A stretch of DNA of 64,000 nucleotides. Source: Mediterraneibacter butyricigenes (GTDB lineage Bacteria; Bacillota; Clostridia; Lachnospirales; Lachnospiraceae). Shown here piece by piece: positions 37,926 through 52,421 of the stretch (position 1 is the first letter of the stretch; every line of letters starts with the position of its first letter). Where the stretch lies: NCBI RefSeq assembly GCF_003574295.1, contig NZ_BHGK01000001.1, forward strand, positions 1,550,001 to 1,614,000. The letters run 5' to 3'. Below the pieces are notes generated by a model. That model saw only the letters and a program-made list of their open reading frames with translations, made no database searches and was not told the origin of the DNA. The position numbers and the translations under genes are program-made.

Positions 37926-37952
37926 CGCACTGAGTAAAATCGGTGCGTTTTT
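37926..37952 (+). terminator. Terminator after the lipoprotein gene
   Basis: CGCAC and GTGCG pair around 12 bases and are followed by TTTTT, just before the GGAGG of the adhesin gene. Confidence 0.6.
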
Positions 37953-37974
37953 GCATTTCAAGGAGGAAAACGCA

Positions 37975-40900
37975 ATGGTTAAAACAAAATTCAAGAAAGC
38001 CGTCTCGCTTATGTTGGCGGCGGTTATGAGCCTTACTGCTTTTACGGGCATTGGGGCAACGACAGCCTTTGCAGCCGTAGGAGAAAAAGCCGATGTGTAC
38101 CTCGTCGATTATCCCCGAAGCGGAGATACCAATAACAACGGCGAATGGGGACACGGCAATCTCAACTATATGAACGGTTGGAAAGGCTTGTCCACAAAAT
38201 ATACAGGACTTCGTGCAATGGGTTCGTATTCGGGCAATATTGCCTACTGTATTGAACCGGGTACAGGTCAGCGGACTGGAGATACTCTCACCGAAAAGGA
38301 CGAGAACTTCTTTAATAACATCAGCCCGAACGGAACGATTTCCGGCGATGACATTCGCCTGCTTATCGGTCGTATCTTGCAGTACGGCTACCGTGGAGGT
38401 ATTTCGACAAGCTGGAAGTCGCAGAATGAAAGCGACGCAAACTGCATCGCACACGCTTATGCCACTCAGATTTTGATTTGGGAAACGATTGTCGGAGAAA
38501 GAGACGCAGGCTTTAATCACGTTTCTACCAGCGGATACAATGCCGTGCTTGAATGTGTAAGCACTGCACACCCACTCCGCAGTAAAATCTTGTCGTACTA
38601 CAACAGTATGGTAACAAGTGTTCAGAATCACACCAAAGTGCCGAGCTTCTGCACAAGGTCAAGCGGTTCTGCAAAGGTAAACGAGCTTGAATGGAACGGA
38701 AGCAAGTATGTTGCTACTCTCACCGATACAAACGGTGTGCTTGGCAATTACAACTTCTCGGCAAACATTGACGGGGTTTCTTTCTCTGTCAGCGGAAACA
38801 AATTGACTGTTTCGATGGAGAAAGCTCCGAGCAAGGAATTTACCATCACAGCCGCAAAAAAGAACGGTGTCCGCAGAGGTGTTGTCGTATGGTCTGACGG
38901 TATCCATCAGAACGGAAACGGCATTCAGGATGTGGTCACTTATGCTCAGGAGGTCAGTGACCCTGTCAGCGGCTTTGTCAAAATGAAGGTAAGCTACGGC
39001 TCTTGTCAGATTGTAAAGACAAGTGAGGACGGAAAGGTTGACGGCATTCAGTTTACCATAAGCGGTAACGGTGTCAATCAGACTGTAACAACCGCAAACG
39101 GCGGTAAATTCCAACTGGATAACCTTATGCCCGGTGTTTACACGGTAACAGAACAGTCTATCGACAAATATGTTCCGCAGGAGGTTCACAGAGTAACTGT
39201 TGTTGCCGGTCAGGTGTCAAAGGTCAATTTCAATAATGTTCTCAAAAGAGGTAATCTTCAGGTCATCAAATCTTCTGAGGATAACTTGGTTGAGGGCGTT
39301 ACCTTCCATCTTTACGGCACATCTCTTTCCGGTATTGCTGTCGATGAGTATGCCGTGACAGATAAGAACGGTGTTGCTTCTTTTGATGATGTGCTTATCA
39401 GCGGCACTACCCCATACACCATTGAGGAAGTGGATACCGCAATCCGTTATGTTGTGCCTGCAAATCAGACCGCACCGATTAACTGGAAAGAAGTAACCAC
39501 AAGAAACTTCACGAACATTCTCAAAAAGTTCAGCGTAACCGTAACAAAGAGCGACCGAGAGGAAGGCACACCGCAGGGCGACGCTACCCTTGCCGGAGCA
39601 GTTTACGGTATCTATAAAGGCGAAACCCTTGTGGACAAGTATGTGACGGATAAGAACGGGCAGTTTACCACAAAGGAATATGTCTGTGATAATGACTGGA
39701 CAATCCGTGAAATCACGCCGTCCGAGGGTTATCTGCTTGATACGACTGTTCACAAGGTCGGTGCTGAACCGCAGCTTTATACGGTGGAACACAATCAGAC
39801 AGCAAATGATGTTACCGAACAGGTTATGAAAGGCAATATCGCCATTATCAAGCACACCGATGACGGCGAAACTCAGATTGAAACACCGGAAAACGGAGCA
39901 ACCTTTGAAATCTATCTCAAATCTTCCGGCAGTTTTGACGCAGCAGAAGAAGATGAAAGAGATGTCATTGTCTGTGATGAAAACGGTTTCGGGCAGACAA
40001 AGGATATGCCTTACGGCGTATATACCGTTCATCAGACCTCCGGTTGGGAAGGTCGTGAGCTGATGAAGAACTTTGATGTGTTCATTGCTCAGGACGGACA
40101 GACCTACCGCTATCTTATCAACAACGCAAACTTTGAAAGCTATATCAAGGTTGTCAAGGTGGACGCAGAAAGCGGTAAAAACATTCCTTATGCCGGTGCA
40201 GGCTTCAAAATCTTTGACCCTGACGGCAATCAGGTAACAATGACCTTCACTTATCCTACTCCGACAACGATTGATACTTTCTACACCGACGCAAACGGAC
40301 AGCTTGTGACACCGGAAAAACTGGAATACGGCAAGGGATATTCTCTTGTAGAAGTTCAGGCTCCTTACGGATATGTGCTTGACAGCACACCGGTGTACTT
40401 TGATGTGGCAGAGGAACATTCTTCCGATGAGGGTGGTATTACCGTGATTAAGGTCGATAAGCCTAATATGGCACAGAAAGGTACAGTCAGCATTGAAAAG
40501 ACCGGCGAGGTGTTTTCAGGGGTAAATATCTCCGGCGTGGAAAACGCCGATGTGATTTATCAGCCTGTCTATGAAGTGAAAGGTCTTGCAGGTGCAGTTT
40601 ATGAGATTAGCGCAGCAGAAGATATTATCACTCCCGACGGTACACTCCGTTATGCAAAGGGCGAGGTAGTAGATACTGTTACCACAGATGAAAACGGACT
40701 TGCCAAGAGTAAGGAGCTTTATCTCGGAAAATATACGGTGGTTGAAATTACTGCACCGGAGGGTATGGTCATCAACAAAGAAGCTCACGATGTTGAGCTG
40801 ACTTATGCCGGTCAGGAAGTGTCTGTAACCGAAACCGCCACAAGCTTTGTAAACGACAGGCAGAAAGTAGCGGTAAGTCTTGAAAAGACTATTGAAAAGA

Positions 40901-42225
40901 ACGACATCTTCAATATCGGCAACGGCGATGAAATGAAGAATATCAGCTTCGGACTTTTCGCCGCAGAAGAACTTGTTTCTGCAAGCGGTACTTCTATTCC
41001 GGCAGACGGACTGATTGAGATTATCTCACTTTCCGAGAACGGCAAGGCTGTTATCAAAACCGACCTTCCTTTCGGAAGCTACTATGTAAAGGAACTTGCC
41101 ACCGATGAGCATTATATCCTTACCGACGCCAAGTATCCGTTCACTTTCAGCTATGCCGGTCAGGATACCGCAAATGTTGAGATTGCGGTCAATGACGGCA
41201 AGCCGATTGAAAACAAGCTCATTTACGGTTCTGTTTCCGGTAAGAAGATTACCGAAAACGGCGAAGCACTGGGAGGTGCTGTAATCGGTCTGTTTAAGGC
41301 TGATGAAACCGAATTTACAAAAGAAAATGCTTTGATGACTGCTACCTCCCAAAAAGACGGTAGCTTTTCTTTTGAGAAAGTACCGTATGGCAACTGGCTT
41401 GTAAGAGAAATCGAGCAGCCGGAGGGCTTCGTGCTTGATGAAACTTCTTATGAAGTTAAAATCTCCGAGGTCGCTCAGGTCATTGAGGTCGAAATCGTCA
41501 ATGAGTATGTTCACGGCAATATCAAGTTGACTAAGGTCGATGAAGATTACCCGGACAACAAGCTGACAGGAGCGACCTTTGAGGTTTACAAAGATGTAAA
41601 CGGCGACGGTAAACTGGATGACGCCGACGAGCTTATCGGAACTCTCTCCGAAACCTCTACCGGTATTTACGAGATGAAGGAACTTCTTTACGGAAAATAC
41701 CTTGTAAGAGAAACCAAAGCACCGGATGGCTTTGAGCTTGATAAGGGTGTGTACTCTGTTTTCATTGAAAAAGATGAAACCACCTACGAGGTAGAAAACA
41801 AAGCCGGCGTCGGCTTTATTAACACAGCTATGAAAGGAAACCTGAAAATCGTTAAAACTTCCTCTGACGGTAAGGTTGAAGGCTTCACTTTCAGAGTTAC
41901 AGGAGTAAACGGTTACGACCGAAGCTTCACGACCGATAAGAACGGCGAAATCATTATCGAGGGACTTCGTATCGGCGATTACACCATTTCCGAGGTTCAG
42001 GATAGTGTTTCTGCTTCCTATGTGCTTCCTGCGGATAAGATTGCAACCGTAAAGGTCGGTTCTACTACCGTTGTGGAAATGCACAATGAGCTGAGAGATA
42101 CACCAAAGACCGGAGATAACAGCAATGTGGGCTTGTGGACGGCACTTGCGGGACTTTCTGCCCTCGGTATTGTCGGCACAGCCGTTGTTGCGTACAGAAA
42201 AAAGAAGAAGGAGGACAATGAGTAA
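37975..42225 (+). CDS. Large SpaA-type thioester adhesin with sortase signal
   Basis: A 1416-residue cell-wall protein. It has a signal peptide (to TTAFAAVG) and a thioester domain with Cys in NIAYCIEPGTGQ and Gln in AYATQILIWETI. About nine SpaA/Cna-B-type isopeptide domains follow, recurring as lysine-rich strands such as CQIVKTSEDGKVDGIQFTI and ending motifs of the type APDGFELDKG. The sortase motif is TPKTG, followed by a membrane helix and KKKKEDNE. The rod-like repeat stack holds the covalent-binding tip away from the cell. Role: adhesion to host or mating partner. Confidence 0.93.
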   Translation: MVKTKFKKAVSLMLAAVMSLTAFTGIGATTAFAAVGEKADVYLVDYPRSGDTNNNGEWGHGNLNYMNGWKGLSTKYTGLRAMGSYSGNIAYCIEPGTGQRTGDTLTEKDENFFNNISPNGTISGDDIRLLIGRILQYGYRGGISTSWKSQNESDANCIAHAYATQILIWETIVGERDAGFNHVSTSGYNAVLECVSTAHPLRSKILSYYNSMVTSVQNHTKVPSFCTRSSGSAKVNELEWNGSKYVATLTDTNGVLGNYNFSANIDGVSFSVSGNKLTVSMEKAPSKEFTITAAKKNGVRRGVVVWSDGIHQNGNGIQDVVTYAQEVSDPVSGFVKMKVSYGSCQIVKTSEDGKVDGIQFTISGNGVNQTVTTANGGKFQLDNLMPGVYTVTEQSIDKYVPQEVHRVTVVAGQVSKVNFNNVLKRGNLQVIKSSEDNLVEGVTFHLYGTSLSGIAVDEYAVTDKNGVASFDDVLISGTTPYTIEEVDTAIRYVVPANQTAPINWKEVTTRNFTNILKKFSVTVTKSDREEGTPQGDATLAGAVYGIYKGETLVDKYVTDKNGQFTTKEYVCDNDWTIREITPSEGYLLDTTVHKVGAEPQLYTVEHNQTANDVTEQVMKGNIAIIKHTDDGETQIETPENGATFEIYLKSSGSFDAAEEDERDVIVCDENGFGQTKDMPYGVYTVHQTSGWEGRELMKNFDVFIAQDGQTYRYLINNANFESYIKVVKVDAESGKNIPYAGAGFKIFDPDGNQVTMTFTYPTPTTIDTFYTDANGQLVTPEKLEYGKGYSLVEVQAPYGYVLDSTPVYFDVAEEHSSDEGGITVIKVDKPNMAQKGTVSIEKTGEVFSGVNISGVENADVIYQPVYEVKGLAGAVYEISAAEDIITPDGTLRYAKGEVVDTVTTDENGLAKSKELYLGKYTVVEITAPEGMVINKEAHDVELTYAGQEVSVTETATSFVNDRQKVAVSLEKTIEKNDIFNIGNGDEMKNISFGLFAAEELVSASGTSIPADGLIEIISLSENGKAVIKTDLPFGSYYVKELATDEHYILTDAKYPFTFSYAGQDTANVEIAVNDGKPIENKLIYGSVSGKKITENGEALGGAVIGLFKADETEFTKENALMTATSQKDGSFSFEKVPYGNWLVREIEQPEGFVLDETSYEVKISEVAQVIEVEIVNEYVHGNIKLTKVDEDYPDNKLTGATFEVYKDVNGDGKLDDADELIGTLSETSTGIYEMKELLYGKYLVRETKAPDGFELDKGVYSVFIEKDETTYEVENKAGVGFINTAMKGNLKIVKTSSDGKVEGFTFRVTGVNGYDRSFTTDKNGEIIIEGLRIGDYTISEVQDSVSASYVLPADKIATVKVGSTTVVEMHNELRDTPKTGDNSNVGLWTALAGLSALGIVGTAVVAYRKKKKEDNE

Positions 42226-44756: not shown

Positions 44757-47700
44757 GTGGCAAGAAAATTTGACCTGATTTCAGAGCTGTATGAAAGAAC
44801 CTGTTTTGCAGTTACAGACAATCCGGTAAACTGGCAATCGTTTCTGAAAACAGCAGGCAGAAATTTCAGGCTCCGATTTGATGAACAGCTTCTCATTTAT
44901 GCCCAAAGACCCGACGCAACAGCCGTGCTTGAAATCGAACGATGGAACGGTACTTTCGGTCGCTGGGTAAACCGAGGAGCAAAGGGTATTGCCGTATTTG
45001 AGGACACAGACAGAAGCCGTCAAAGGCTGATTCATTACTTTGATATATCGGACACCCACGAAAGTCGACATTCCCGCCCTGTTCCGATTTGGGAGATGAG
45101 ACCCGAATATGAAGCAGAAGTTATTGAAACACTTGAAAATACTTTCGGTGCGGTAAACGATACAACGAGTATTGAAAATGTCGTCAAAGAGAGCATTGCC
45201 AATGCCGTTGAGGATAACATCGCAGACTATATCTCCGACTTTATGAGTTTGGGTGCAGGAAGCGATATTGAGTATTTGTCTGCCGACGAAGCAAATGCCT
45301 TGTATTTGGAGCTTGTCAGAAACAGCGTATCATATATGGTTATGGCACGATTGGGACTGAACGCAGACAAGGTCTATTCTCCCGATGACTTTGCCGGTAT
45401 TTCAAGTTTTAATTCACAGGAAGTTCTCAATGCGGTGGGTATTGCTACAAGCGACATTGCAGAAATGGCGTTGCTCCCTGTCAGCAGAACAATCAGCACG
45501 CTCAGCAAGGAAAATCGCATAATTGATGAACAGGAGCAATCCGAATACAATAAAGACATCAAAGACGAAAGGAGTCAAAGCGATGAGCGAAATCACATAC
45601 ACGATGGTGGGAGATTACAATCTTCCGAACCTGAAACTGCCGGAGCAGACGGAAGTGACTCTCGGCAGATGGTCGCAGATGAGGAGAACTTATCTGAAGG
45701 AACATCACAAAATCCTGTACTACAATCTTCTGACGAAAGGGATTCTGAACAGTCACTTGGCGGAGGTTCAGCAGAGAGCCAGCGAACTGGAGGAAACTCT
45801 CGTGAAGCAGATGGCACAGAAAGCCGGGCTGACGGAGCAGATGAAAGCGGAAGATATGATGAAGTGGGTTCGCCTGATGAACAACATCAGGAACTCGGCA
45901 CAGGAAATCGTGAAGAATCAGGTAATATTCGCTTAGAGTATTACGACAGAAACCACGAGGACAAGAGCCTGCCGTTTTTCGGTGGCGATGATACTATCCG
46001 AGAGATACTCGGTACTACCCCGCATTTGTCCGCTTCAAAGGAAGAAATCAAAGACTTCTATGAGAGAAATACGGACAATGCGACCCGTACCGAATATATC
46101 AAGGGTATCTTCAATAACGACTACACCCGGCTTACCTTAAACGACGGCAGGCTTGTGGGATACAAAACATTTCAGAATGTCCTCCACTTGTGGGAGGGTG
46201 AATACGAAAACAGAACCGCTCAGAGTTTCTACGACTGGGGCGTTATCGCACAGCATTTTGAAGCAATGAGACTTTTGGGAGAATTGACCGATACAATGAA
46301 ACCGATTCCGTCTATGGACGGTCAGTTGACTCTCATTATGGGAAATCAGGCAGAGGAACAAAAAACCTCTGCCTTTACTTTTTCTCAGGAAATCATAGAC
46401 GCTGTATTGACCCGTGGAAGCGGAGTTTCCGAGGGTAAAATGCGTATCTATGAGCAGTTTGAAAAGAGCATTTCCGCAAAAGAGAACGCCGACTTCTTGA
46501 AAAACGAATACGGTTGGGGCGGCTCTTATCCGGTCATCATCGGTGCAGGCATTGACGAACAGCACGACGGAAAAGGTATCACAATTTCAAAAGGTATCGG
46601 AAGCGACAAGCCGCACATTACTCTTTCTTGGTCTCAGGTGGAAAAGCGTATCGGAGACCTTATCCGTATGGACAGATACCTAAACCCAAAGGAAAAAGAA
46701 AAGTACCCTGAATGGCTTGAAAAGCAGGAAGAACGGCGAGCCGAGCTTGCAGAGCAGAGAAAAAACCGTGAGATACTTTCTACCGCACCGCCTGAACCTG
46801 AAAACAAAGAGGACGAGCCGGAAGCGCAGTATGAATATCATCTCGGCGACAGCGTGTATATTGGGGCTTCTCAGTATGAGATTTTGTCCTTTGATGAAAA
46901 CCGTGTAATGCTCTATGACTTCGATATGCCCTTATTCAACAAGGAACTTTCAAGGGAAGAATTTGACCGCAAAGTGCGTGAAAATCCGATGAACGACCAC
47001 TTGAAGGTCAGTGTATTACCGGCGGAAGAAAAAACCGTTACAGGCGAAAATAAAGCTCAAAACGATACTGAAACCGTACCGGATTTCAGTCCGAAAACCG
47101 GTTATGACGACGCCTTCTTTATTGACCGGGACAATGAAAGTGTAACTTGGATGTACTATAACCCCGACAGCAATGCCGGAGGTCAGTATGTTACAAATAC
47201 TCTTTCTTTTGACGAGATACAGCAAGTCGCACGGGAGTATGACTCGGCAGAGGATTTCTTTGATTATCTCGGTAGCATTGCAAATCAGGAGCTTGCCGAT
47301 GTAGGTACGGAATGGTTTGTGGACGCAGACCGAGAATTTCACAGGACACCGGATTTGACCGACTGTACCTCTGCCACAATGGAAGCTCTTATTGAAAACA
47401 CTGAAAGAGCTGATATGGTGGCAACAAATATCGGGAATGTACCGATTGAGGATTACAGAGAAATCGTTGCTACTCAAAACGGTTTTGACAGCGATGAGGA
47501 AATGTATAACGAGGGTGTTCGTATCGGCAACGGTTACGACAAAGAGCCTGAACCGATTGTCCCCGCTTGGGAGCAAAAGAAAAAGTCAAAAGTAAAGAGC
47601 TTTGACCTCCACCCGGATATTCCTATGTCCGAACGACACAACTTTGACCTTGCCAATAATCAGGTTGAAGAAGTGAACAAGAAAGAACGCTTCCACCGAA

Positions 47701-50700
47701 ACTATGCAGCAATAAAAGTCCTGAGAGATTGTCAAAACGAAAACCGTTTTGCAACACCTGACGAGCAGAAAATCTTGTCGAGATATGTCGGTTGGGGCGG
47801 TATTCCCGAAGCCTTCGACGAACGAGCAGGAGCTTGGCATACAGAGTATGCAATGCTGAAAAACATCCTGACGCCGGAGGAATATGCGTCGGCAAGAGAA
47901 AGCACACTGACTGCATTTTACACTCCGCCCGAAGTATCTACCGCCATTTACAAGGTGTTGGAACAGATGGGATTTCAGGAGGGCAACCTGCTTGAGCCGT
48001 CCTGCGGTATCGGTAATTTCATCGGTATGCTGCCCAAGTCAATGGAAAACGCAAAGGTTTACGGTGTTGAGCTTGATACCATTTCAGCCGGTATCGCTCA
48101 GCAGCTTTATCAGAAATCTTCCATTGCGGCACAGGGCTTTGAGGAAGTAAATGTCCCCGACAGCTTCTTTGACGGCATTATCGGCAATGTGCCTTTCGGA
48201 GATTTCAAAGTCTCCGATAAACGATACGACAAGTACAATTTCTTAATCCACGATTATTTCTTTGCAAAATCGCTTGATAAGTTACGCCCCGGCGGTGTGA
48301 TGGCTCTTGTGACAAGCAAAGGAACTATGGACAAGGAAAACTCCAATGTGCGTAAATATATCGCACAGAGGGCGGAGCTTCTCGGAGCAATCAGACTTCC
48401 GAACGACACCTTCAAAGGTAATGCCGGGACAGAGGTCGTATCCGATATTCTGTTTCTGCAAAAGCGAGACAGACTCATAGATATTGAGCCGGATTGGGTT
48501 CATCTTGACACCGACGAAAACGGTATAAGGATGAACTCATATTTTGTTCAGCACCCGGAAATGATACTCGGCGAAATGAAAATGGTAAGCGGTCGCTTCG
48601 GACCGGAAGCAACCTGTGAACCGTTTGAAAATGCCGACCTTTCGGAGCTTTTGAACGAAGCAGTCTCAAACATTCACGGAGAAATCTCCGAATACGAGGT
48701 TGCCGACGAACTGGAGGAAGAAGATAATTCTATCCCGGCAGACCCTATGGTAAGGAACTTCTCTTACACTGTTTTAGACGATAAAATCTATTTCCGTGAG
48801 AACTCCCGTATGTCCCCGGTGGAGGTATCTGCAACCGCTGAGAACCGCATTAAGGGTATGATTGGGATAAGAGATTGCGTCCGTAACTTGATTGAACTGC
48901 AAACCGAGGATTACCCGGACAGCGAAATCAAACAGGCACAGGATAAGCTGAACACACTGTATGACAGCTTTACAAAGAAGTACGGACTGATTAACAGCCG
49001 TGCCAATACTTCTGCCTTTTCCGACGACAGCTCCTATGCTCTGCTCTCCGCTCTTGAGGTTATCAATGAAGATGGCGAACTGGAACGCAAGGCGGATATG
49101 TTCTTCAAAAGGACGATTAAACCGCACAAGCCGGTAACGGAGGTTGACACCGCAGACGAGGCTCTCGCTGTCTCTATGGGCGAAAAAGCAGCCATTGATA
49201 TGGAATATATGATGGAGTTGTCCGGCAAAAGTGAGGAGGAATTATTCGCTGACTTAAAGGGTGTAATCTTCTTAAATCCCCTTTATGAGTACGGTAATTC
49301 CTATGAGCCGAAGTATCTGATGGCAGACGAATATCTGTCGGGCAATGTTCGTGAGAAGCTGGCGACAGCCAAAAGGTCTGCGGCACTGTATCCCGAAGAT
49401 TACACCGTCAATGTGCAGGCACTTGAAAAGGTGCAGCCAAAGGATTTGACGGCAAGCGAGATTTCCGTAAGGCTCGGTGCGACTTGGATACCGCCCGAAA
49501 TATTCCAACAGTTTATGTTTGAGTTTCTCGACACCCCACGCTATGCACAATGGAATATCAAGGTTCACTACTCTCAGTTTACCGGCGAATGGAACATTGA
49601 GGGAAAGAGCTACGACCGTTCCAATGTAAAAGCGTACAGCACATACGGTACTTCCCGCATCAACGCATATAAGATAATTGAGGAAACACTGAACCTGAAA
49701 GATGTCCGAATCTTTGACTATATCGAAGATGAGGAAGGCAGAAAGAAAGCCGTTCTCAATAAAAAAGAGACGGCAATCGCACAGGCAAAGCAGGAACTCA
49801 TAAAGCAGGGCTTTCAGGACTGGATATGGGCTGACCCTGCCCGCCGAGAAAAACTCACGAAGATGTATAACGAAAAGTTCAACAGTATAAGACCCCGTGA
49901 GTACGACGGAAGCCACATTGTTTTCAACGGTATGAACCCGGAAATCGAACTCCGTGAACATCAGAAAAATGCGGTTGCACACATTCTGTACGGCGGTAAT
50001 ACGCTGTTAGCACACGCAGTCGGTGCGGGCAAGACCTTTGAAATGGTAGCCGCCGCTATGGAGTCCAAACGACTGGGACTTTGCAATAAGTCGCTGTTCG
50101 TAGTGCCAAATCACTTAACCGAGCAATGGGCGGCGGAGTTCTTACAACTCTATCCGGCGGCGAATATTCTCGTAGCGACAAAGCGAGATTTTGAGACAAA
50201 GAACCGCAAAAAGTTCTGCGGTCGAATTGCCACGGGAGATTATGACGCCGTAATCATCGGTCATTCTCAGTTTGAGAAAATCCCGATGTCCATTGAAAGA
50301 CAGAGGGCAATTCTTGAGCAGCAGCTTGAAGAACTGACAGACGGTATTATGGATTTGAAGCGAAACCGTGGAGAAAACTTCTCCATTAAACAGCTTGAAA
50401 AGTCTAAAAAGTCCGTGAAACAAAAGCTGGAAAAGCTCAACGACCAAAGCCGAAAGGACGATGTTGTTACCTTTGAAGAACTCGGTGTGGACAGGCTTTT
50501 TATTGACGAGAGTCATTATTACAAGAACCTCTATCTTTACACCAAAATGCGTAATGTGGGCGGTATCGCTCAAACGGAAGCACAGAAATCCTCCGACCTG
50601 TTTATGAAGTGCCGATACCTTGACGAGCTTACAGGCGGTCGAGGAACGGTATTTGCAACCGGTACTCCTATCTCAAACAGTATGGTGGAGCTATATACCA

Positions 50701-52421
50701 TTCAGCGATACTTGCAGTACAACACGCTTGTCAAAAACAACTTGCAGCACTTCGACTCGTGGGCAAGTACCTTTGGAGAGACTGTAACAGCCGTTGAGCT
50801 TACCCCGGAGGGAACGGGTTACAGAGCGAAAACCCGCTTTGCGAAATTCTACAACCTACCGGAGCTTATGGCGATGTTTAAGGAGGTCGCCGACATCAAG
50901 ACGGCGGATATGCTGGAACTGCCTGTGCCGGAAGCACACTTCCACAATGTTGCGGTCAAGCCTTCGGAAATGCAGAAAGAGATGGTTGCTTCCCTTGCGG
51001 AACGAGCCGAGAAAGTCCGTGGCGGCGGTGTAGATTCGAGTGTAGATAATATGCTTAAAATTACAAACGACGGCAGGAAGTTAGCACTTGACCAGCGTAT
51101 GCTTAACGATATGCTGCCTGATTTTGAGGGCAGTAAAATCAACGCCTGCGTCGATAACATCTACCGTATTTGGGAGGAAACAGCCGATAAAAAATCGGCA
51201 CAGCTTGTGTTCTGCGACCTCTCAACTCCAAAGAATGACGGAACATTCTCGGTATATAACGACATCAGAAAGAAGCTCATAGAGCGTGGTGTCCCCGAAA
51301 GCGAAGTCCGCTTTATCCACGAAGCAGATACCGATGTGAAGAAAAAAGAACTGTTCCAAAAGACCCGTAAAGGCGAGGTCAGAGTGCTTCTCGGCTCTAC
51401 GCAAAAGATGGGAGCCGGCACGAATGTTCAGGACAGACTTATCGCACTTCACGATGTGGATTGCCCGTGGAGACCGTCAGACTTGGAGCAGCGTTCCGGT
51501 CGAATTATCCGTCAGGGTAACTCAAATCCTGATGTAGATATTTACCGCTATGTAACGGAGCAGACCTTTGACGCATATCTCTATCAGCTTGTAGAGGGAA
51601 AGCAAAAGTTCGCCAGTCAGATTATGACGAGCAAATCCCCGGTGCGTTCTGCCGAGGATATTGATGAAACCGCCCTTTCCTATGCAGAGATTAAAATGCT
51701 TGCCACCGGCAACCCGTATATTAAGGAGAAGATGGATTTGGACATTCAAGTTCAAAAGCTGAAGCTCTTAAAATCCAACTTTCTATCTGAAAAATACGCT
51801 TTGGAAGATAAGATAATCAAATATTATCCGCAGCGAATTACAGCTTTGGAAAACCGTATTGAAGGATTGAAGCAAGATGTAGAAACTGCGAAACAGCACC
51901 CGAAACCAACGGACGACCGATTTGTCGGTATGGAGGTTAAGGGTGTTTTTTATTCCGAAAAAGCCGACGCCGGTAAAGCAATCATTGAAGCCTGCAAGCA
52001 GATGAACAGCCCCGACCCTATTCCTCTCGGCAAGTACCGAGGGTTTGAAACGGAACTGCTTTTTAATACCGCAGAGCGAAATTATGAGGTTCGACTGAAA
52101 GGTGCGACAAGCAGAAATGTTCCTCTCGGTGATGACGCACACGGCAATATTATCCGTCTTGATAACGGCATTGAGAGATTTGCCGAGAGCTTGTCGCTTG
52201 CGGAAAATGACCTTGAGAACACCACAAATCAGTTGGAAACCGCAAAGAAAGAAGTCCAAAAACCGTTTATCCAAGAGGAAGAACTAAAGACAAAGCTTGC
52301 CCGCTTGGACGAGCTGAATATCTTGCTCAATATGGATAAGCGAGAAAACGAAATTGTCGGCGGCGAACCCGATGAGGGCGAAGTGCCGAACACACGAAAG
52401 GAGAAAACCTATGAACGATAA
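44757..52421 (+). CDS. Giant DarB-like methylase-helicase (LtrC/SNF2-type)
   Basis: A 2554-residue polyvalent protein with GTG start. In order it contains an ArdC/LtrC-type N-terminal domain (FRLRFDEQLLIYAQRP, about residues 1-120), an E/G/S/D-rich linker (about 255-395), several small LPD-type domains, and an N6-methylase-like domain with motif I LLEPSCGIGNFIG near 1080 and NVPFGDF near 1143. A superfamily II helicase follows, with Walker A AVGAGKTFEM near 1750, DESH near 1917, ATGTPISN near 1970 and QRSGRIIRQG near 2245. Phage P1 DarB has the same composition and protects incoming DNA from type I restriction. The linker doubles as a second gene, tnpV. Confidence 0.9.
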   Translation: MARKFDLISELYERTCFAVTDNPVNWQSFLKTAGRNFRLRFDEQLLIYAQRPDATAVLEIERWNGTFGRWVNRGAKGIAVFEDTDRSRQRLIHYFDISDTHESRHSRPVPIWEMRPEYEAEVIETLENTFGAVNDTTSIENVVKESIANAVEDNIADYISDFMSLGAGSDIEYLSADEANALYLELVRNSVSYMVMARLGLNADKVYSPDDFAGISSFNSQEVLNAVGIATSDIAEMALLPVSRTISTLSKENRIIDEQEQSEYNKDIKDERSQSDERNHIHDGGRLQSSEPETAGADGSDSRQMVADEENLSEGTSQNPVLQSSDERDSEQSLGGGSAESQRTGGNSREADGTESRADGADESGRYDEVGSPDEQHQELGTGNREESGNIRLEYYDRNHEDKSLPFFGGDDTIREILGTTPHLSASKEEIKDFYERNTDNATRTEYIKGIFNNDYTRLTLNDGRLVGYKTFQNVLHLWEGEYENRTAQSFYDWGVIAQHFEAMRLLGELTDTMKPIPSMDGQLTLIMGNQAEEQKTSAFTFSQEIIDAVLTRGSGVSEGKMRIYEQFEKSISAKENADFLKNEYGWGGSYPVIIGAGIDEQHDGKGITISKGIGSDKPHITLSWSQVEKRIGDLIRMDRYLNPKEKEKYPEWLEKQEERRAELAEQRKNREILSTAPPEPENKEDEPEAQYEYHLGDSVYIGASQYEILSFDENRVMLYDFDMPLFNKELSREEFDRKVRENPMNDHLKVSVLPAEEKTVTGENKAQNDTETVPDFSPKTGYDDAFFIDRDNESVTWMYYNPDSNAGGQYVTNTLSFDEIQQVAREYDSAEDFFDYLGSIANQELADVGTEWFVDADREFHRTPDLTDCTSATMEALIENTERADMVATNIGNVPIEDYREIVATQNGFDSDEEMYNEGVRIGNGYDKEPEPIVPAWEQKKKSKVKSFDLHPDIPMSERHNFDLANNQVEEVNKKERFHRNYAAIKVLRDCQNENRFATPDEQKILSRYVGWGGIPEAFDERAGAWHTEYAMLKNILTPEEYASARESTLTAFYTPPEVSTAIYKVLEQMGFQEGNLLEPSCGIGNFIGMLPKSMENAKVYGVELDTISAGIAQQLYQKSSIAAQGFEEVNVPDSFFDGIIGNVPFGDFKVSDKRYDKYNFLIHDYFFAKSLDKLRPGGVMALVTSKGTMDKENSNVRKYIAQRAELLGAIRLPNDTFKGNAGTEVVSDILFLQKRDRLIDIEPDWVHLDTDENGIRMNSYFVQHPEMILGEMKMVSGRFGPEATCEPFENADLSELLNEAVSNIHGEISEYEVADELEEEDNSIPADPMVRNFSYTVLDDKIYFRENSRMSPVEVSATAENRIKGMIGIRDCVRNLIELQTEDYPDSEIKQAQDKLNTLYDSFTKKYGLINSRANTSAFSDDSSYALLSALEVINEDGELERKADMFFKRTIKPHKPVTEVDTADEALAVSMGEKAAIDMEYMMELSGKSEEELFADLKGVIFLNPLYEYGNSYEPKYLMADEYLSGNVREKLATAKRSAALYPEDYTVNVQALEKVQPKDLTASEISVRLGATWIPPEIFQQFMFEFLDTPRYAQWNIKVHYSQFTGEWNIEGKSYDRSNVKAYSTYGTSRINAYKIIEETLNLKDVRIFDYIEDEEGRKKAVLNKKETAIAQAKQELIKQGFQDWIWADPARREKLTKMYNEKFNSIRPREYDGSHIVFNGMNPEIELREHQKNAVAHILYGGNTLLAHAVGAGKTFEMVAAAMESKRLGLCNKSLFVVPNHLTEQWAAEFLQLYPAANILVATKRDFETKNRKKFCGRIATGDYDAVIIGHSQFEKIPMSIERQRAILEQQLEELTDGIMDLKRNRGENFSIKQLEKSKKSVKQKLEKLNDQSRKDDVVTFEELGVDRLFIDESHYYKNLYLYTKMRNVGGIAQTEAQKSSDLFMKCRYLDELTGGRGTVFATGTPISNSMVELYTIQRYLQYNTLVKNNLQHFDSWASTFGETVTAVELTPEGTGYRAKTRFAKFYNLPELMAMFKEVADIKTADMLELPVPEAHFHNVAVKPSEMQKEMVASLAERAEKVRGGGVDSSVDNMLKITNDGRKLALDQRMLNDMLPDFEGSKINACVDNIYRIWEETADKKSAQLVFCDLSTPKNDGTFSVYNDIRKKLIERGVPESEVRFIHEADTDVKKKELFQKTRKGEVRVLLGSTQKMGAGTNVQDRLIALHDVDCPWRPSDLEQRSGRIIRQGNSNPDVDIYRYVTEQTFDAYLYQLVEGKQKFASQIMTSKSPVRSAEDIDETALSYAEIKMLATGNPYIKEKMDLDIQVQKLKLLKSNFLSEKYALEDKIIKYYPQRITALENRIEGLKQDVETAKQHPKPTDDRFVGMEVKGVFYSEKADAGKAIIEACKQMNSPDPIPLGKYRGFETELLFNTAERNYEVRLKGATSRNVPLGDDAHGNIIRLDNGIERFAESLSLAENDLENTTNQLETAKKEVQKPFIQEEELKTKLARLDELNILLNMDKRENEIVGGEPDEGEVPNTRKEKTYER
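45583..45936 (+). CDS. tnpV: TnpV-family protein nested out of frame in the DarB-like gene
   Basis: A 117-residue protein in the +1 frame of the surrounding gene. It matches the transposon-associated TnpV family: MSEITYTMVGDYNLPNLKLP, LGRWSQMRRTYLKEHHKILY, then EDMMKWVRLMNNIRNSAQEI. A near-perfect AAAGGAG lies 8 bases upstream of its ATG. In the other frame the same bases encode the low-complexity linker of the giant protein. The small protein looks conserved along its whole length, so it is the constrained frame. TnpV function is unknown; it was named from Tn4451. Confidence 0.85.
   Translation: MSEITYTMVGDYNLPNLKLPEQTEVTLGRWSQMRRTYLKEHHKILYYNLLTKGILNSHLAEVQQRASELEETLVKQMAQKAGLTEQMKAEDMMKWVRLMNNIRNSAQEIVKNQVIFA

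Follow-up and report, generated by a model that had tools for sequence, protein, structure and literature searches.

A tnpV gene within a giant methylase/helicase gene

The 64,000-nucleotide stretch of the Mediterraneibacter butyricigenes genome analyzed here, hereafter the window, carries a giant gene whose product joins an adenine methylase to an SNF2-type helicase and, wholly inside this gene and on the same strand, a complete tnpV gene (Table 1). The giant gene starts with a GTG codon at 44757, and tnpV extends from an ATG at 45583, the T of which is the third base of a giant Asp codon, to a TAG that ends at 45936. The coordinates, the +1 frame, the lengths of both products, and the ribosome site given in the preliminary description all proved correct by sequence, and the small protein matches PF14198 over positions 1–111 of 111, scoring 146 bits against a cut-off of 27. 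The giant peptide opposite tnpV is indeed the low-complexity E/G/S/D text reported earlier, with E17, G17, S17, and D12 among its 117 residues. The methylase (PF02384) and SNF2 (PF00176) domains both exceed their cut-offs and lie in one chain. By eye, the N terminus of the giant resembles ArdC-N; no Pfam ArdC match was obtained there at E values up to 1, and an ArdC-like feature is listed under the giant match in two Listeria plasmid records.

Table 1. Features of the tnpV/giant gene locus, in window positions
Feature	Positions	Strand	Basis
Giant host gene, 2554 aa, adenine methylase plus SNF2-type helicase	44757..52421	+	ORF and Pfam
tnpV ribosome site AAAGGAG, 8 nt 5' of ATG	45568..45574	+	Sequence
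Giant segment overlapping tnpV, 117 codons, acidic low-complexity linker	45582..45932	+	Peptide charge -19; pS 0.200 vs 0.734 upstream
tnpV, 117 aa, nested in the giant's frame +1	45583..45936	+	PF14198 4.9e-43; omega 0.083
Giant N6 methylase domain, residues 1042–1238	47880..48470	+	PF02384 5e-10
Giant SNF2-related domain, residues 1748–1923	49998..50525	+	PF00176 2e-9
Giant helicase C-terminal domain, residues 2171–2254	51267..51518	+	PF00271 4e-7

A start codon preceded by a ribosome-site-like core is present in 117 of 121 nested Bacillota tnpV genes. Among start codons picked by script, those of L070, L088–L090, L102, and L113 are far from the domain and doubtful. As background, such a core lies before 13 of the 75 ATGs in tnpV's frame of the window giant. 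An identical public copy of the locus has genes for DUF3991/TOPRIM, DUF3846, MobC, and a relaxase annotated downstream of the giant, and the window is therefore considered part of a mobilizable or conjugative element. A 1424-aa ORF lies upstream of the giant (window 37951–42225), and its counterpart in the identical copy is annotated as a SpaA isopeptide-forming pilin-related protein. This copy, with a giant and a tnpV 100% identical to those of the window, is on L115 (NZ_OY725736.1), a 518 kb record labeled a Monoglobus plasmid. The host genome (3.03 Mb) contains eight TnpV matches besides the window tnpV, one of which is nested in frame +1 of a second, diverged giant (L017, C1:1100631–1109267) that is 62% identical to the window giant over residues 959–2160.

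Distribution of the nested arrangement in Bacillota and phages

At a threshold of E up to 1e-100, giants were present in 68 of 299 genomes of the family. The family census covered the 5' regions of 60 plus 18 places, a portion of the giant list that left out more distant matches without a methylase part; L055 and L219 (both cut short) and L230 (a short duplicate) were unusable, leaving 75 giants with a readable 5' end. In 72 of these 75, TnpV lies on the same strand in frame +1, and the giant frame is open across it. Homologs in which the TnpV frame is broken while the giant remains open, a pattern whose regular occurrence the preliminary description had named as refuting its reading, were absent: 0 of the 75 giants keep a broken tnpV, and the three exceptions have none, as L213 retains the N-terminal region without a TnpV segment, L217 has no N-terminal region that could be found, and L220 is shortened. 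A scan of named genomes yielded at least 78 TnpV loci among the matches listed, 34 with the primary match in a giant and 44 free; again among the matches listed, all 34 giant-located matches are nested at +1, and none of the 44 free loci has a same-strand open frame across tnpV. In a sample of the phylum, PF14198 was detected in 28 of 398 genomes, and the 49 rows classified, which include a few loci taken twice and the window's own genome, comprise 28 nested and 21 free copies. L261 is the lone free row of the 21 with an open giant-type frame across tnpV, of 162 codons. In six free copies (L162, L163, L233, L234, L240, and L242), the frame corresponding to that of the giant is 26–32% like the giant linker (residues ~277–393), with stops interrupting it.

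Plasmids extend this distribution. Among 19 plasmid records, L115 repeats the window and 12 further Bacillota giants nest TnpV at +1, in Cohnella, S. suis, S. agalactiae, Anaerococcus, Aerococcus, Listeria, R. albus, Subdoligranulum (two), E. faecalis, Virgibacillus, and Selenomonas. The E values of these nested TnpVs span 7e-50 to 1e-5, with weak matches in R. albus (1e-5), E. faecalis (3e-8), and Listeria (2e-7), and the Cohnella and Aerococcus giants are broken at other places. Acaryochloris has a separate tnpV whose overlap with the start of the SNF2 gene is 8 nt, which shows that the pairing also exists without nesting. The plasmid search revealed no TnpV with the giants of Burkholderia, Agrobacterium, Campylobacter, Vallitalea, or S. 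ruminicola; together with L213, L217, and L220, these five indicate that TnpV is dispensable for some giants. In L148, L198, and L212, and also in L196, the giant stops or is divided close to residue 2019, with a free tnpV in the DNA that follows, a layout that fits an snf2 insertion hot spot like the one described in the consulted part of a report on S. suis (PMC9815147).

DarB-like giants of phages yielded weak matches to the TnpV profile (Klebsiella LASTA, 7e-6; Vibrio VvAW1, 1e-4; Sinorhizobium PBC5, 7e-5), with E values computed for the ORFs of a single locus. A search with the LASTA ORF returned 21 phage records, including duplicates, and no plasmid match; with P0001 as the sole query, no relative was found in viral_contigs. 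In all 11 named phages the ORF occupies the giant's +1 frame, shortly 5' of the methylase domain, and in IMG/VR 63 of 65 distinct viral loci, a few of which are the named phages again, are nested at +1. The two others are L326, which ends at a contig edge, and L306, a decayed remnant in which a 241-aa frame is open across the ORF; in this decayed prophage (L306 7982–8707) the nested ORF is intact and the giant broken. At the conserved Met, 49 of 63 phage loci have a start codon preceded by a ribosome-site-like core. Because their homology to TnpV is weak by sequence, the phage ORFs are called only TnpV-like here: PF14198 matches 6 of 10 at E up to 1 (best 1.8e-4) and its cut-off is not reached (18 bits against 27 in the example shown), and a profile-profile comparison with TnpV gave a weak E of 0.0027 at a probability of 11%. 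The two share the same frame and place, a like order of helices in the predicted models, and the same best viral structure match, Q8W6J4_2 (TnpV, E 0.48, probability 0.97; phage ORF, E 1.7e-7). From the lengths (2185 aa halves to 1093) and the identity, this structure is probably the second half of PBC5 orf33. In orf33 itself (L281 4907–11464; 2185 aa), the TnpV-like segment forms the C-terminal end as an in-frame fusion, and the protein overlaps the giant frame.

The records that were opened usually call only one of the two genes complete, which exposes a fault of annotation. In the identical copy of the window locus, the annotation includes TnpV but places the SNF2 start 1.9 kb after tnpV, at the cost of ~1030 N-terminal residues of the giant; the Selenomonas plasmid is annotated likewise. 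Conversely, the annotations of Listeria, S. suis, Anaerococcus, R. albus, E. faecalis, and Virgibacillus include the giant but omit the nested gene, according to a plasmid gene table that is itself incomplete, and most phage records opened call the giant alone.

Selection in the two reading frames

The preliminary description had proposed a comparison of rates in each frame across homologs, and this comparison bears out coding in the TnpV frame. For 19 window-like sequences (119 pairs), pS of the giant frame is 0.734 upstream of the overlap, falls to 0.200 within it, and returns to 0.711 downstream, while pN/pS takes values of 0.31, 1.48, and 0.26 in the same segments. The 3' edge of the drop in pS is not sharp, since windows in gappy columns just 3' of the overlap also have low pS (0.06–0.33). 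When isolated changes were sorted by their effect in both frames, omega was estimated at 0.083 for the TnpV frame (95% interval 0.05–0.12) and at 1.16 for the giant frame in the overlap (0.66–2.15), intervals and counts that are optimistic because the pairs share ancestry; the residue order of the giant is thus without detectable constraint over this stretch. None of the sorted isolated changes in the overlap creates a stop. Phages yield a similar picture: in five phages host pS reads 0.449, 0.153, and 0.453 across the three segments, with an omega of 0.123 for the nested frame and 0.72 for the host frame, and in a larger set host pS is 0.232 in the overlap (372 pairs) versus 0.609 downstream (355 pairs).

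The absence of stops from the giant frame of nested genes proves nothing by itself, because the label 'nested' already requires a long open frame; the independent evidence for openness comes from the census of giants found by homology and from the contrast with free genes. Across 50 free-standing tnpV genes, the giant-type frame averages 5.8 stops and is open in none. A wobble T that would create a stop for the giant is found at 0 of 2185 nested sites versus 290 of 1168 free sites, compared with 1164/4583 (nested) and 955/2520 (free) at harmless sites; in phages the corresponding counts are 0/1325 at stop-making sites and 323/2695 at harmless ones. Recoding the nested proteins to match free-gene codon usage preserves an open giant frame with a mean probability of only 0.002. 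Shuffling each gene's own codons among its own residues, a weaker test, gives a chance of openness with a median of 0.027, a mean of 0.073, and a largest value of 0.87, and this chance is below 0.05 in 63 of 99 nested genes. The earlier suggestion that an open giant frame arises from the TnpV frame as a by-product is hence rejected, given that this frame is open in 0/50 free genes and 1/21 of the further sample (L261).

Composition separates the two classes as well. The giant-frame peptide over tnpV has a median charge of -11 in nested genes, compared with +9.5 when free genes are translated in this frame, and where the wobble base decides between E/D and K/N-type residues it is G in 2327 of 2888 nested cases (0.81, versus 0.53–0.64 in other contexts) but in 460 of 1048 free ones (0.44, versus 0.48–0.54), with nearly equal G+C at the loci (0.46 nested, 0.45 free). 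This Bacillota-type G bias is not distinctive in phages. At the level of sequence comparison, these data show that the TnpV frame is kept for its amino acids and that the giant frame is kept open and, in Bacillota, acidic; the stretch of the giant over tnpV would therefore serve as a flexible linker. Dual coding at the overlap is thereby supported, and a chance overlap is rejected by the free-gene contrast, the drop in pS, and the omega of the TnpV frame. The earlier idea that tnpV was captured as a linker holds insofar as the giant apparently uses the stretch as one, with selection acting in both frames; the part that fails is capture in this particular element, as the nesting is old and recurs in the family giants, plasmids, and phages.

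A putative partner of the giant and its origin

We consider it about 65% probable that tnpV is an old gene nested in the giant methylase/SNF2-helicase gene, translated from its own internal ribosome site at +1, and that its product is the giant's dedicated partner. Such a role, suggested by the persistence of the pairing, is the most likely one for TnpV, ahead of one mainly in transposition. DarB-like or polyvalent giants are presumed to accompany DNA as it enters a cell, according to the consulted part of PMC5512222, and the recurrent pairing of TnpV with this class favors the partner role. Most likely, TnpV would be made from the internal ribosome site on the giant's own mRNA, and this small, helical, and usually not basic protein would bind the giant translated from the same message, so that the giant stays inactive, or competent for transfer, within the donor cell or virion up to its delivery along with the DNA. 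A chaperone or inhibitor acting during delivery would be the most likely specific role, with a subunit or regulator of the giant as a near alternative. The predicted TnpV model is helical with a short N-terminal hairpin, and median charges are -2 for nested, -1 for free, and -5 for phage proteins, the window copy being slightly basic at +2. PDB searches with this model found nothing useful (best E 2.2; best Z 5.3 in a second search), a PDB sequence search reached E 0.12 at best, no structure match points to a chaperone, PADLOC returned nothing for TnpV, and NCBIfam gave a sub-threshold match only.

Besides the giants without TnpV, the slightly basic window copy, the weak homology of the phage ORFs, and the want of a chaperone-like structure match, the existence of free tnpV copies far from any giant, some of them beside genes that by eye resemble serine recombinases, weighs against a partner. 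Such an ORF lies upstream of three of the five free tnpV copies of the host genome (L018, L019, and L021), which would suit an Xis-like recombination directionality factor, as postulated for Tn4451 in the consulted part of PMC3158075, that is merely housed in the giant. The persistent nesting in methylase/helicase giants, including those of phages, and the mostly neutral to acidic charge of TnpV make this reading improbable; no winged-helix or similar DNA-binding fold appears among the listed structure matches of TnpV, although the protein may well have one. The persistence of free copies in many contexts would also agree with real dual coding by a TnpV whose function is unrelated to the giant, e.g. 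one directed against host defense, and for which co-transfer and co-expression are the gain. That possibility is unlikely too, if marginally less so than an Xis-like factor, as nesting in a single frame of one gene family, both in elements of Bacillota and in phages, together with the Acaryochloris neighbor, exceeds what co-transfer needs. By far the least probable is that one frame alone is real, TnpV being a chance ORF or the giant a shorter gene starting 3' of tnpV, as the late SNF2 start in the incomplete gene table of the identical copy might suggest; selection on the TnpV frame and on the openness and acidity of the giant frame speaks against it, as does conservation of the giant upstream of tnpV (pN/pS 0.31).

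TnpV belongs to the same protein family (PF14198) as the tnpV products of Tn4451 and of C. difficile Tn6104–Tn6106, likewise mobile elements of Bacillota, although tnpV is described there as a gene of its own, whereas the window tnpV is wholly inside a methylase/helicase gene. The window giant shares the methylase and SNF2 helicase pair with the DarB-like or polyvalent proteins of PMC5512222, whose main text, so far as consulted, contains neither 'TnpV' nor 'overlap' and describes no nested gene. In S. suis, tnpV and the snf2 gene of conjugative elements also occur together, tnpV being reported in inserted cargo in the part of PMC9815147 consulted, whereas the S. suis and S. agalactiae giants found here (L117, L118) have their own nested TnpV-like ORF. 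A further parallel is comS in srfAB of Bacillus subtilis (PMC12915044, consulted in part), also a small gene in another frame of a very large bacterial gene; the TnpV case differs in having free relatives of the inner gene as a control and in recurring across many elements and phages. In the accessible portion of the openly licensed PMC literature, no description of TnpV nested in a methylase/helicase giant was found. The locus represents a clear instance of dual coding, widely shared among mobile elements of bacteria and among phages. Its outer frame has been pared down to an acidic linker, its inner one retains a protein, and free copies of the inner gene furnish a control seldom available for overlapping genes. 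The orphan TnpV family also gains a testable partner in a methylase/helicase thought to protect incoming DNA.

A single recent capture is rejected by the spread of nesting over elements, plasmids, and phages. More tentatively, TnpV might be a small partner family of delivered DarB-like methylase/helicases, with nesting at a fixed +1 in the conjugative elements, plasmids, and phages that several phyla harbor. Read-through of tnpV from a coding region lying upstream, and fusion with a methylase/helicase gene, may have created the outer gene; some of the free transposon copies that gave the family its name may then be escapees of the nested gene. The trees rest on few columns. With midpoint rooting, the tree of 120 rows, whose free rows are a biased sample found by window-like queries, groups 17 nested rows at the base. 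Free rows are basal in the 103-row tree, rooted on the very long Acaryochloris branch and with an unsettled bootstrap, and all 62 nested rows fall with 9 free rows into one clade (97/94). Nested and free rows are strongly clustered in both, starred branches forcing at least 4 changes between the two states among the 120 rows or at least 3 among the 103, and in the 103-row tree some free copies, e.g. L019 and L240, branch among nested ones.
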